Assembly: GCF_006402735.1 (NCBI RefSeq) | Contig: NZ_CP017174.1 | Span: 1,801,001-1,865,000, forward strand | Length of the DNA stretch: 64,000 nucleotides | From: Myxococcus xanthus | GTDB taxonomy: Bacteria; Myxococcota; Myxococcia; Myxococcales; Myxococcaceae | Direction: 5' to 3' | Shown: positions 29,479 to 33,256 of the stretch, in pieces | Numbering within the stretch: the stretch's first letter is position 1 | Layout: each line of letters begins with the position of its first letter | Made by a program: the position numbers and the translations under genes | The notes under the pieces: generated by a model | Databases searched by the model: none | What the model saw: only the letters and a program-made list of their open reading frames with translations | What the model was told of the DNA's origin: nothing

Positions 29479-29500
29479 GGGGACCTGGACTCAGGTCCCC
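29479..29500. terminator. Bidirectional terminator hairpin
   Basis: GGGGACCT (29479-29486) and AGGTCCCC (29493-29500) form a perfect 8-bp stem with a 6-nt loop. It lies between the convergent ends of the Gld-like operon and the gas-vesicle-type operon and includes the GvpL/GvpF stop codon. No T-run follows on either strand. Confidence 0.6.
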
Positions 29501-30336
29501 ACCGCGCCCTCGTCACGCAGGCCCAGGTGCACGTCCACGAAGCTGTACGGCGCCCAGGGACCGGTGAAGCGGAACGAGTACGTGTCCGAGCGCGCGGCCA
29601 GGGAGCGGACCTTCTCCTCGAAGGACTCCAGCCGTGCCCGCTCGACGAGGAAGGCAGCGTTGAGCAGCATCCGCTCTCCTACGAGGGGAAGCTCGCGCGT
29701 GGCGGCGGCACGGGGGCGCAGGCCTTCCAGCAGTGCCCGCATGTCACGCCCGGCGCGGTCCTCGACGGCGGCCTCCAAGCGGCGCTCGTGCTCGGCCTCC
29801 GGCTCATCATCGCGCCGGTGAAGCTGGGCGTCTTCCAGCACCAACCGCTGGGCGAGGTGCTCGCGGTGCCAGAGCACCTTCAGGCCCAGCTCCACCTTGC
29901 CCTCCAGCGCGTCCAGCACGCCGGACAGTTCGCCATGGGCCGTGCGCAGGACAGCGCGTACCTGGGCCTCGGACGCCATGACGGTGCCGAAGGCCACGGG
30001 GAGCACGGTGTGCTCACGGAGCAGGGTTTCGGTGACGCGCTGGTGCCCGAGCAGGTTCGCCCGCGTCGGGTCCACCACGCGGCCGGGGGCCACGGACACC
30101 ATGGCGGCAAGGCCGGCCTCACTCACCGCGTACACCTGTGATGGAACGGCGCCCAAGCCGATACGCCCGACGTCCAGGGACGCGGTGGCACGGACGATGC
30201 CGTAGAGATACCGGAGCCCGTCGGGCGTCACCGTCTCCGCCGTGGGAGGCGAAGGCCGGGCGACCTGGGCCGTGCGGCTGTCGCCGTGAGCCGCCCCCTT
30301 CCGGGGCCGTGTCGTCCGGGACATGGTGCGCTTCAC
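29491..30336 (-). CDS. Gas vesicle protein GvpL/GvpF family
   Basis: The 281-residue protein is a clear GvpL/GvpF member: RYLYGIVRA near residue 42, a VYAVSEAGLAAMVS core, REHTVLPVAFGTVM near 108, GKVELGLKVLWH, then LLNAAFLVERARLESFEEKV and the C-terminal TGPWAPYSF typical of the family. In gas-vesicle clusters these are minor assembly or accessory proteins. The first 38 residues are a basic, low-complexity extension. The start is a GTG overlapping the response-regulator stop by 4 nt; an ATG 12 nt further on is possible. It is last in a four-gene leftward operon that starts with a GvpA-like gene and holds a two-component pair. No other gvp gene is in the window. Confidence 0.92.
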   Translation of the reverse strand: MKRTMSRTTRPRKGAAHGDSRTAQVARPSPPTAETVTPDGLRYLYGIVRATASLDVGRIGLGAVPSQVYAVSEAGLAAMVSVAPGRVVDPTRANLLGHQRVTETLLREHTVLPVAFGTVMASEAQVRAVLRTAHGELSGVLDALEGKVELGLKVLWHREHLAQRLVLEDAQLHRRDDEPEAEHERRLEAAVEDRAGRDMRALLEGLRPRAAATRELPLVGERMLLNAAFLVERARLESFEEKVRSLAARSDTYSFRFTGPWAPYSFVDVHLGLRDEGAVGT

Positions 30337-30743
30337 CTCGCCGATGCGCCTCCGTGGGTGGCGAGCACGCGGCGGACTTCATCCACCAGCGCGTCCGGCA
30401 GGCAGGGCTTGGTGACGAAGGAGTCGCAGCCCGCGCCCTTGGCTTCGTCGGACTGCCCCGTCATCGCATGGCCCGTGAGCGCCACTACGGGGATGGCGCG
30501 CGTGCGGTCGTCGCCCTTCAGCCGCCGTGTCGCCTCCCAGCCGTCCATGATGGGCAGCGACAGGTCCATGAGGATGATGTCGGGCCGCAGCTCGAAGGCC
30601 TTGTCCAGCGCCTCCTGGCCGTTCTTCGCCTCGGCGACGCGAAAGCCCGAGAACTCCAGGTACTCGGCGTACATCTCCCGGGCATCTTGATAGTCGTCTA
30701 CGACGAGCACGAGGGGCTTCGGGGTCTCAGATGGGTTCGTCAT
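30333..30743 (-). CDS. CheY-like single-domain response regulator
   Basis: The 136-residue protein is only a receiver domain: acidic pocket Asp16/Asp17, phospho-acceptor Asp60 in [10 protein letters not shown], Thr90 in VVALTGHA and Lys112 in FVTKPC. There is no output domain, so it acts by protein contact or as a phosphate relay. ATGA and GTGA overlaps join it to the histidine kinase upstream and to the GvpL/GvpF gene downstream. The kinase is the natural phosphodonor. Confidence 0.94.
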
Positions 30744-32845
30744 GCGCGCCTCGCGCGTCGGGGGAAGTGCAGGGTGAATGTCGAACCCTCGCCCTGGGTG
30801 CTCTGGAGGGTGACGCGTCCCCCCAGCATGGCCGCCAGGCGCCGGCAGATGGAGAGCCCCAGCCCGGTGCCTCCATAGGCCCGGGTCGGAGAGCTGTCCA
30901 CCTGCTGGAAGTCCTCGAAGATTTTTTCCTGGTTCGCTGGGTCGATGCCAATGCCCGTGTCCGTCACGGAGATGGTGAGCGTGGACGTAGCAGCCACGTA
31001 CTCTGCCTGCACCTGCACTGAACCTTCGTGCGTGAACTTCAACGCATTCGACAGGAGGTTGAGGACGATTTGTTTCACCTTCTGCCGGTCACTGTACACA
31101 GCCGGCACGCGCGGGCCGAGGTGGGCGCTCACCGTCAGCTTGCTGCGCGCGATGATGGGGTCCATCTCCGCCATCACCTCCTGGAGCAGCTCCGGGATGC
31201 CGAAGTCCGACAGGTTCAAGGGCATGCGGCCCGCTTCGATGCGGGTGATGTCCAGAATCTCGTTGATGACCTCCAGCAGGTGTCTGCCGTTGGAGTCGAT
31301 GCGCGTGAGGTTCCGTTTCTGCGCCGGGTTCAGTTCGCCGGACACGCCCTGCAGCAGCATGTTCGTGTAGCCAAGGATGGCGTTGAGCGGCGTGCGGAAC
31401 TCGTGGGACATGTTGGCCAGGAACTGGGACTTGGCCGCGCTGGCCTGCTCCACCTGGATGGCCTGCCGGCGCAGCATCTCGTTCTGTTCGGCCAGCTCCG
31501 CGGTGGCGGCCTGCACGCGCGCCTCCAGGTGGACGGAGCCTTCCTTCACCCGCTCCAACAGGCGCGCCTTCTCCAGCGCCTCGCTGCGGTCGTGGAAGAG
31601 GGTGACGATGCCCGTCAGCTCACCGGAGTCGCCCAGGACCTTGCTGGCCACGGCCTCCATGGGGAGCGTGGCGCCCGTGGCCGGGTCCAACAGCCCGAGC
31701 TGCCCGCGCCAGCGGGGCCGGCCCTCCGCGTCCAGCAGGTTGGCGAGGAACGACGAGAAGCTCGCGTTGTTGGAGCGCAGCCGCCGCAGCGCCGCCTCCC
31801 CACTGTCGGGGTGCGTGGCGAAGAGCTTCTCCGCCGGGCCGTTCATCATCACCATGCCGCCCGCCGGGTCGGACAGGATGAGGGGGTCCGGCACGGAGTC
31901 CAGCACGCGGTCCAGCCGGTGGCGCTCGCTGCGGGCCTCCCGCTCCGTGGCGCGCAGGCGCCGGTAGCTCTCCCCCAGCGCCTGGGTGGCGCGGCCCAGG
32001 TCCGTCACGTTGCGCAGCACGCTCACCAGGGCCTCGCGGCCATCCGGCTCGAGCACGGGCGTGCTGACGACCTCGAAGAGCAGGTCGATTCCCTCCACCG
32101 GGTCCACCAGCGGGACTTCCCGGCGGCGTACGGTGGATGTGTCACCGCTGGCGAAGCTGGCCAGCGCGGAGGAGAACACCTGCCGGTTGAGCTCCGTCGC
32201 CCGGCGGCGGCCTTCGCTCGCATCCGGCCCCGCCACCAGCAGCACCTCCGCGCGGGCGTTGGCGATGTGGGGCCGCCCCTCCAGGTCCGTCAGCAGCACG
32301 GGGTCCGCCACGGTGTCGATGATGCGACGGAGCAGCTCGCCGCCCGCCACCTCGCGGCGCTCCGTGGGCAGCATGGCGGCCAGCCGGGGGCCGACGTGCG
32401 CGCTCACCCAGGCGGCGTCCGGCGTCAGCGTGGGGCCGTCCGCGGACAGCAGCAGCAGGCCCGCAGCGGGCGCTCCGGGACGGCCCAGGGGCACCGCGAT
32501 GCACCCCACGGCCGGAAGTGGGGCCCAGGGGGTGGCGAAGAAGCGAGGTGCCCCCTGCGTCAGGGTCTCCGCCAGGGGATGGGAGGCCTCACCGGGCTGG
32601 AACGCCAGGGCGTCGCGCTGGGCCTCGGAGAGGTTGCGGGCCGCGAGGCAGACCCACCCTCCCGTGCCGCTGTCGCGCGCGAGGCAGGCGGCGACGTCCG
32701 ACGGCCGCTCGCGGGTGAGCCACGCCACCACGTGCCGCGCGCACAGACGTGGCTCGTCGCAGGCGAGCAGCTGCTCGGCCAGGGCGAGCCGTGCTTCGAC
32801 GTCTGGCTCGGGCGTTGGGGTGGGCAGTGCGGCGGGGGGGGCCAC
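30740..32845 (-). CDS. PAS-domain sensor histidine kinase
   Basis: The 701-residue kinase has no membrane segment, so it senses in the cytoplasm. Residues about 10-160 look like a GAF-type domain, followed by PAS segments at about 170 ([18 protein letters not shown]) and 310 ([17 protein letters not shown]), a third PAS-like region near 390, a coiled coil, then HisKA with His481 in [10 protein letters not shown] and a HATPase domain with N box [12 protein letters not shown]1 DTGIGIDP and G2 GTGLGLS. It starts with a GTG 4 nt after the stop of the GvpA-like gene and overlaps the receiver gene by ATGA. Some PAS domains bind flavin or haem; no such ligand can be read here. Confidence 0.93.
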
Positions 32846-32849
32846 TGCG

Positions 32850-33041
32850 TCAGGCTCCGCGGGAATGAGGGGTGGGCGTTCGCACCTCCACGAACTTCAC
32901 CACGATGGTGCGTGTGGACGCGGGTGGCCAGTCCTGGAGCGCCTGCTTGTGGACGTTCGTGTCCCAGCGCAGACCCCGGCCCAGCACCCGGTCCAGGACG
33001 TCGACGAGGCTGGCGCTTCCAGCCAATCTTTCCACGGGCAT
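32850..33041 (-). CDS. Short GvpA/GvpJ-like gas vesicle structural protein
   Basis: The 63-residue protein begins [20 protein letters not shown], whose second part matches the N-terminal helix of the GvpA/GvpJ/GvpM family (consensus like SLADVLDRVLDKG), continuing [11 protein letters not shown] where GvpA has its first strand. The second half ([13 protein letters not shown]) has a beta-strand pattern but has lost the usual IEARVVVASV-type sequence. It is a little shorter than GvpA (about 70). It is the first gene of the operon, 4 nt before the kinase, with the GvpL/GvpF gene at the other end, which supports the family call. A longer frame reaches 33203 but the added part has no family resemblance. 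Whether it can polymerise is unknown. Confidence 0.65.
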
Positions 33042-33128
33042 CGTCGAAGCTCCTCGGCTCCTGGGGCCGGGTTTTTGTAACGCGCGTCGGCGAGCCGCCC
33101 CAGAACAGGCTTGCCCGCACCGTGATTT

Positions 33129-33157
33129 GCGAACACGAGAGGGCCGGCAGTGTTCGC
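33129..33157. promoter_or_regulatory. 8-bp inverted repeat in divergent promoter region
   Basis: GCGAACAC (33129-33136) and GTGTTCGC (33150-33157) form a perfect dyad with a 13-bp spacer. It lies 88 bp from the GvpA-like start and 100 bp from the FAD-Rieske start, in the 215-bp divergent region, which otherwise holds no gene. A dimeric regulator could bind here; centre spacing of 21 bp (two helical turns) fits such a site. Confidence 0.5.
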
Positions 33158-33256
33158 TCGTGTACATCTGCAACGTCTCGAAGCTGGGTAGGCAGCCAGC
33201 CATGAGGTCCGCTCCCGTGGCTTATCGCTCCGGGGCGCCGTTCCTAGCCTTGGGCC

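Follow-up and report, generated by a model that had tools for sequence, protein, structure and literature searches.

A four-gene operon of Myxococcus xanthus joins a degenerate GvpA and a GvpL/GvpF protein to a two-component system

What do gas-vesicle-type proteins do beside a two-component system in Myxococcus xanthus? The question is raised by four minus-strand genes in a stretch of 64,000 nucleotides (nt) of the M. xanthus genome (contig NZ_CP017174.1, positions 1,801,001 to 1,865,000; hereafter the window, whose own numbering is used below). In order of transcription these are gvpA', as we call a GvpA-like gene of 63 codons (32850..33041), a histidine kinase gene (30740..32845), a receiver gene (30333..30743), and a gene of the GvpL/GvpF family, hereafter gvpL/F (29491..30336). 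An earlier note, made from the sequence of the window without database searches, had described four leftward genes with a 4-nt gap at one junction and 4-nt overlaps at the other two, and open reading frame analysis confirmed that all four genes are real, with the gap between gvpA' and the kinase gene and the overlaps at the kinase/receiver and receiver/gvpL/F junctions. Our preferred reading, to which we give a probability of roughly 0.5, is that the operon is what remains of an ancestral gas-vesicle (gvp) cluster, its retained regulatory core, in which GvpL/F and a non-polymerising peptide corresponding to GvpA helix alpha1 form an input or output complex of the two-component system. We hold more tentatively, at a little short of even odds, the wider claim that an organelle structural protein has been reduced to a chaperone-binding helix which, with GvpL/F, forms a soluble complex of this kind in at least five genera, with no shell gene seen in most of the genomes.

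A degenerate GvpA and its three companions

The comparisons below draw on 52 Myxococcaceae genomes that carry the operon, namely 27 of the genus Myxococcus (g1, taken in a wide sense that includes Pyxidicoccus), 2 of g30, 15 of g31, 7 of g33, and 1 of g34. The product of the window's gvpA' (ATG start) missed the PF00741 gathering threshold, scoring 14.7 bits over 14 residues against a cut-off of 25, and scored 20.2 bits over residues 1-30 with the NCBIfam GvpA model PRK09371 (cut-off 100). Six gvpA' products from other genomes scored 14.6 to 20.4 bits with PF00741, also below the cut-off, and that of genome G099, scanned alongside them, reached 29.8 bits; since this score exceeds the cut-off, we regard the G099 protein as an intermediate form. 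Thirteen of the 52 gvpA' sequences and three full GvpA proteins of relatives (genomes G048, G052, and G053) gave a collinear alignment, in which M1, V3, G8, S11, D14, D17, R18, and G23 are invariant. The helix alpha1 motif SLxDVLDRVLDxG is kept nearly unchanged, with G in place of the last D in the window copy (segment names follow the GvpA model in the available text of PMC7688916). In contrast, the hairpin region has a mean hydropathy of +1.5 in the three GvpA proteins and of -0.1 to -1.2 in the same 13 gvpA' sequences, and at -1.21 the window copy has no hydrophobic beta1-beta2 hairpin. An origin of gvpA' by internal deletion or frameshift of GvpA was rejected, as the alignment is collinear and the middle of the protein has not been lost.

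Its gene position, its collinear sequence, and the G099 intermediate together show, at the level of sequence comparison, that gvpA' descends from GvpA. It retains helix alpha1 and little else, and by the same comparison it is not a working GvpA or GvpJ. The description of this protein in the earlier note as GvpA/GvpJ-like therefore stands for its ancestry and for alpha1, and fails for the family cut-off and the hairpin. Because the shell-forming hairpin is gone, gas-vesicle shell formation or any GvpA-type assembly by gvpA' is unlikely, including the small protein assembly that the note had proposed.

Selection on gvpA' was summarised as omega (the ratio of nonsynonymous to synonymous change), computed from pooled pairwise Nei-Gojobori sums with no likelihood fits, in eight groups covering 48 of the 52 genomes: six groups from 25 of the 27 Myxococcus genomes (without G010 and G016), 15 genomes of g31, and 8 of g33 and g34 together. 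The two g30 genomes were left out, and the first Myxococcus group ('xan') is contained in the second ('xan+2'). For residues 1-26 (32964..33041), the segment that holds helix alpha1, omega was 0.16, 0.10, 0, 0 (no amino-acid change), and 0.15 in five Myxococcus groups, unmeasurable for want of any change in the sixth (two genomes), 0.26 in g31, and 0.11 in g33 and g34. For residues 27-45 (32907..32963), which replace the GvpA beta-hairpin, the values in the same order were 0.85, 0.83, 0.76, 0.26, 0.85, 1.04, 0.66, and 1.06, the value of 0.26 coming from a group of three genomes and the other seven lying within 0.66-1.06. A second, weaker conserved segment at residues 46-55 (32877..32906), the counterpart of RVVVASIDTY in GvpA, gave 0.42, 0.44, 0.16, and 0.15 in four groups, was unchanged in three, and gave 1.17 in g33 and g34; it is not recognisable in the gvpA' of g30. 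Judged by these substitution patterns, helix alpha1 is strongly constrained, and where the hairpin once stood there is now a polar linker that evolves almost neutrally in most groups.

These patterns bear on whether gvpA' is a mere leader cistron, the translation of which couples ribosomes to the kinase start and yields a functionless peptide. The spacing of 4 nt to a kinase start in most genomes read would suit such a role, as would the very short reading frame, the mostly near-neutral linker, and a lowered rate of synonymous change at the start of the gene. However, a functionless peptide would hardly show omega of 0-0.26 over residues 1-26, a segment that includes the GvpF-binding helix, and the reading frame is maintained although the length of gvpA' varies from 63 to 77 amino acids (aa); we consider this explanation distinctly unlikely.

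The GvpL/F protein (281 aa, GTG start) is a full-length match to PF06386, with 208 bits (cut-off 23.6) and an E-value of 3e-61. Its AlphaFold2 model (mean pLDDT, the predicted local distance difference test score, 83.9) matched the GvpF structures 6l5d of Anabaena (E = 4e-16) and 4qsg of Microcystis (E = 1.4e-15), and two chains of 6l5d plus 4qsg were the only hits below an E-value of 0.001. The family assignment made in the earlier note is thus borne out, and the predicted structure shows that the GvpF fold is retained. Omega for gvpL/F was 0.29-0.41 in four groups (19 of the 27 Myxococcus genomes); the groups 'big' (0.57) and 'ex2' (1.23) have ragged gene starts, and their values were disregarded. 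In genome G001 (locus L071), gvpL/F is broken, with 155 of the 281 residues recovered in two frames, and gvpA', the kinase gene, and the receiver gene are intact.

The kinase (701 aa, GTG start) contains two PAS domains, HisKA, and HATPase_c per Pfam, has intact H-, N-, and G-box motifs, and contains no hydrophobic segment of transmembrane strength, as expected of a soluble protein. Its N-terminal domain is GAF-like by predicted secondary structure, although Pfam finds no GAF domain there; the structural model of the kinase, which is of low confidence (mean pLDDT 62.7), was used solely for this pattern, and a fold search with it returned generic kinases and phytochromes. Kinase orthologues downstream of gvpA' share 68-97% identity, and in g33 and g34 the match covers just 519-531 of the 701 residues. 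Among these shorter kinases (locus L137 in G094, L138 in G101, other g33 loci, and that of g34), the one that was aligned, from G094, is without the GAF-like domain, yet gvpA' directly precedes its gene. Since the N-terminal domain is missing or unmatched in the g33 and g34 kinases, it seems from these alignments to be dispensable.

The receiver (136 aa) is a stand-alone CheY-like protein (PF00072, E = 6e-26) that has an intact acidic pair, phospho-acceptor D60, and T and K motifs, and carries no output domain. At the level of sequence, the operon thus holds a histidine kinase and an aspartate receiver with conserved motifs, and a domain scan of its four genes found no other regulator. Omega was 0.12-0.30 for the kinase and 0-0.12 for the receiver (20 of the 27 Myxococcus genomes). 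In G085 (locus L130), the kinase and receiver were called as one frame of 795 aa, and the kinase match is split over two frames; this may be a sequencing error or a natural fusion.

The same gene order in gas-vesicle clusters of relatives

A whole-genome search found a single PF00741 match in the window, gvpA' itself, below the cut-off, and a single PF06386 match, the 281-aa gene, so the window holds no gas-vesicle cluster in the sense of a shell gene with accessory gvp genes, and the earlier statement that it contains no further gvpA holds. The domain scan covered seven proteins around the operon, not the whole window, and among these seven none is GvpN, GvpK, or GvpG.

The order gvpA-kinase-receiver-gvpL/F is also found inside the gvp clusters of G048, G052, G053, and G039, which belong to the same taxonomic order, and of G102, which belongs to the same family and has a full-length GvpA. 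All five clusters have a gvpJ-like gene upstream and gvpG downstream. Further on, the first four contain gvpS-like and gvpK-like genes and more GvpL/F genes; the contig of G102 ends after its next GvpL/F gene. Pfam scans were made for the G048 cluster and for three G102 proteins. The window operon shares the four-gene order with these clusters and differs from them in its reduced GvpA and in having neither gvpJ upstream nor gvpG downstream. Because the kinase and receiver already stand between gvpA and gvpL/F in the clusters of relatives, the comparison of gene order argues that the operon is a gvp cluster reduced around its own two-component system, with no new capture. The proposal that gas-vesicle parts have been taken into a signalling device is therefore only partly upheld: the parts are joined to a two-component system in a conserved arrangement, but that system did not capture them, the cluster having been reduced around it.

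The genome in question (9.3 Mb, one contig) contains a second gvp cluster at 2.13 Mb, 0.3 Mb from the operon (locus L010, 8582-15184). It encodes three PF00741 proteins, GvpK, GvpG, three GvpL/F proteins, GvpH, and a 711-aa CDC48-like AAA protein, and neither a kinase nor a receiver was found among the ten of its proteins that were scanned. The earlier note had allowed that the operon might consist of displaced members of a complete cluster elsewhere. A gvp cluster elsewhere does exist, but the GvpL/F tree does not support displacement from it. In this tree of 77 rows, from which topology alone was used (midpoint root, long-branch warning for other parts of the tree, G001 left out), a branch with support values of 95/98 bounds a group of 57 rows: 51 operon proteins and six others, these being the receiver-adjacent GvpL/F proteins of G039, G048, G052, G053, G102, and G036. 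The three GvpL/F proteins of the second cluster fall outside this group.

The second cluster also raises the possibility that the operon regulates vesicle assembly, with gvpA' acting as a decoy whose alpha1 ties up GvpF/GvpL and the two-component system tuning the distant cluster, the one encoding three PF00741 proteins, GvpK, GvpG, and three GvpL/F proteins. Regulators are known from gvp clusters of Serratia, where GvrB is a kinase and GvrC a receiver, and the Gvr-type regulatory operon includes a transcription factor. The Serratia cluster contains its regulatory genes, gvrA-gvrB-gvrC, within it, and in the available text of PMC4982088 these are required for vesicles or for full gvpA1 expression; regulators within Serratia gvp clusters also appear in the accessible portions of PMC6617781 and PMC11778176. 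In gene content, the window operon differs in that its two-component system is followed by one GvpL/F only, with no transcription factor (the receiver being without an output domain) and no adjoining vesicle genes. Moreover, no PF00741 gene was found elsewhere in 39 of the 52 operon genomes, including single-contig genomes such as G013, G014, G017, and G021, and the GvpL/F proteins of the second cluster belong to other lineages of the tree. Regulation of a distant vesicle cluster thus appears rather unlikely to us.

An orphan ArsA-like ATPase gene (G000:C1:4929356-4931266), the product of which is related (33%) to the ArsA-like protein of the G048 gvp cluster, was considered as a further piece of the module and set aside, since 94 of the 96 family genomes have it, whether they carry the operon or not. 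ArsA homologues are known in gvp clusters from the available part of PMC2963123.

Conservation of the operon in the Myxococcaceae

Genes of relatives were called with a simple codon-usage caller, and an absence from any one genome is uncertain, most of the assemblies being drafts. A search of the family found a GvpL/F match at E <= 1e-20 in 57 of 96 genomes, comprising the 52 of the operon type, three in g8 (31-34% identity; another type), G036, and G102, which is not counted among the 52 because its GvpA is full-length. In all 52 genomes with the operon's gvpL/F, including all 27 of Myxococcus with the window genome among them, gvpA' is present. The kinase and receiver genes follow it on the same strand in 50 of the 50 genomes where the contig reaches that far (with the kinase of G085 in two frames), and of the 49 in which gvpL/F is reached, it occupies one frame in 48 and is broken in G001. 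The contigs of G023 and G015 stop before the kinase gene and that of G025 before gvpL/F; the genes not reached were located at other contig ends. As gvpA' precedes the same genes in relatives, across 52 genomes, the gene order indicates that the association is not due to chance; the survey of the four-gene order that the earlier note had called for accordingly found it conserved.

Genome G036 is not among the 52, since a search of it found no gvpA' and the contig in question opens partway through the kinase gene; on this contig the kinase, receiver, and gvpL/F genes lie some 6 kb away from the DUF4340/ABC genes that also neighbour the window operon. In G079 (g31), no GvpL/F match was found. 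When the G048 GvpL/F was used to search 195 genomes of the phylum, 67 gave a match at E <= 1e-30, and only G156 and G165 (30-31% identity) among these lie outside the class.

Such conservation speaks to the idea that the operon is a functionless, decaying relic of a gas-vesicle cluster. The loss of most gvp genes, the eroded hairpin, and the broken gvpL/F of G001 are what a relic would show. Nevertheless, the operon has been kept in 52 genomes of five genera, and omega is well below 1 for the kinase, the receiver, and alpha1, and 0.29-0.41 for GvpL/F in four groups, which makes decay very improbable. The constituent families are known ones, and what is new is their long-kept, reduced arrangement: in the open-licence literature of PubMed Central, we found no paper on a reduced gvp operon with a two-component system or on a GvpA reduced to alpha1.

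A possible role apart from vesicles

PF00741 genes above the cut-off occur elsewhere in the genome in 13 of the 52 (8 of Myxococcus, plus G087, G098, G099, G100, and G101). A GvpL/GvpF protein accompanied by a kinase and a receiver, in a set of genomes of which 39 yielded no other PF00741 gene, differs in its setting from other members of PF06386, although it shares their family match and predicted fold. Given that the association is conserved and that those 39 genomes showed no further PF00741 gene, the simplest interpretation is a role unconnected with vesicles, and it suggests that former flotation parts now serve in cell signalling in many soil-dwelling myxobacteria.

Under our preferred reading, the retained regulatory core, the ancestor would have had the order gvpJ-like, gvpA, kinase, receiver, gvpL/F, gvpG, and further gvp genes. 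In the lineage of the Myxococcaceae, the vesicle-building genes would have been lost and the hydrophobic hairpin of GvpA eroded, with four genes kept under selection. The GvpA-alpha1 peptide would still bind GvpL/F as in vesicle assembly, its ability to polymerise being gone, and by way of this pair the soluble PAS kinase and the stand-alone receiver would detect a signal or exert their effect; the phosphorylated receiver might, for example, bind or release GvpL/F. As the stand-alone receiver is translated in overlap with GvpL/F, a role in output would seem more likely than one in sensing.

Support for the binding step comes from work on other organisms. In haloarchaea, as far as the available text of PMC7688916 goes, GvpF was the sole partner of GvpA among eight accessory Gvp proteins tested, and fragment 1-22, the part of GvpA that contains alpha1, reached a signal of 41, against 20 for whole GvpA and below 1 for fragments 20-47 and 44-76. 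For a bacterial cluster, the accessible part of PMC11445434 postulates GvpF as the primary partner of GvpA2, displaced by GvpG; gvpG is not among the four genes of the operon. Since haloarchaeal GvpF binds alpha1, the operon can be said to keep a GvpF-binding helix together with a protein of GvpF fold. We infer from this that alpha1 would bind GvpL/F in M. xanthus and that the receiver would contact GvpL/F, and the signal and output of the system would then pass through that complex.

The same binding data, together with the presence of alpha1 in 52 of 52 genomes, would also fit a working module of kinase, receiver, and GvpL/F in which gvpA' takes no part in signalling and is needed only as a ligand that stabilises GvpL/F. 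By sequence this is hard to separate from a retained regulatory core that includes the peptide, but G001 keeps gvpA' though its gvpL/F is broken, and we think a purely stabilising ligand unlikely.

Several points weigh against a retained regulatory core as we have drawn it. In the haloarchaeal work, to judge from the text available in PMC7688916, GvpL did not bind GvpA whereas GvpF did, and the 281-aa protein may be of either type, since the NCBIfam models place it far below both cut-offs (GvpF 69 bits against 350, GvpL 64 bits against 200). Substitutions in beta1 and beta2 of haloarchaeal GvpA also weakened the binding of GvpF according to the same text, and this is the region that is eroded in gvpA'. 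The bacterial contact of GvpA2 with GvpF is described, in the available portion of PMC11445434, only after the removal of GvpG or of the other Gvp proteins. A vesicle role is possible in the 13 genomes that have a PF00741 gene elsewhere. The proportion of synonymous differences in the first 26 codons of gvpA' is 0.05-0.06 in some groups, against 0.14-0.16 in the kinase gene, and because synonymous change is low there, part of the conservation of alpha1 may lie at the level of DNA or RNA. Support for uniting the 51 operon GvpL/F proteins on their own is weak (82/64), and the tree therefore does not establish that reduction happened just once. Finally, because gvpL/F is broken in G001 beside three intact genes, GvpL/F may be dispensable.

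If the preferred reading is true, the conversion of an organelle-building protein into a regulatory peptide could be traced here, G099 retaining an intermediate form and the relatives G048 and G102 retaining clusters of the ancestral type. The role of GvpF/GvpL would become testable apart from vesicles, since chaperone, helix ligand, and kinase-receiver pair occur alone here, and the stand-alone receiver would gain a plausible direct protein partner.

Some smaller features of the locus complete the description. The theme of redox or oxygen that the earlier note had drawn from the divergent Rieske and hemerythrin genes is weak, as the Rieske gene was not found beside the operon in 9, and the hemerythrin gene in 6, of the 27 Myxococcus genomes. 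The region upstream of the operon on its own (minus) strand, between gvpA' and the divergent Rieske gene (33042..33256), contains the blocks CAACAGAG, GTGTTGGCAA, and GCGCGTTA, which are conserved family-wide in a by-eye alignment of 16 upstream regions and are possibly a promoter or operator. We would like to note that the sequence BNCN01000002.1, entered as Comamonas sp. KCTC 72670, carries the Myxococcus operon and by its length is identical to a contig of our set (G024:C2), so that its organism name looks wrong.

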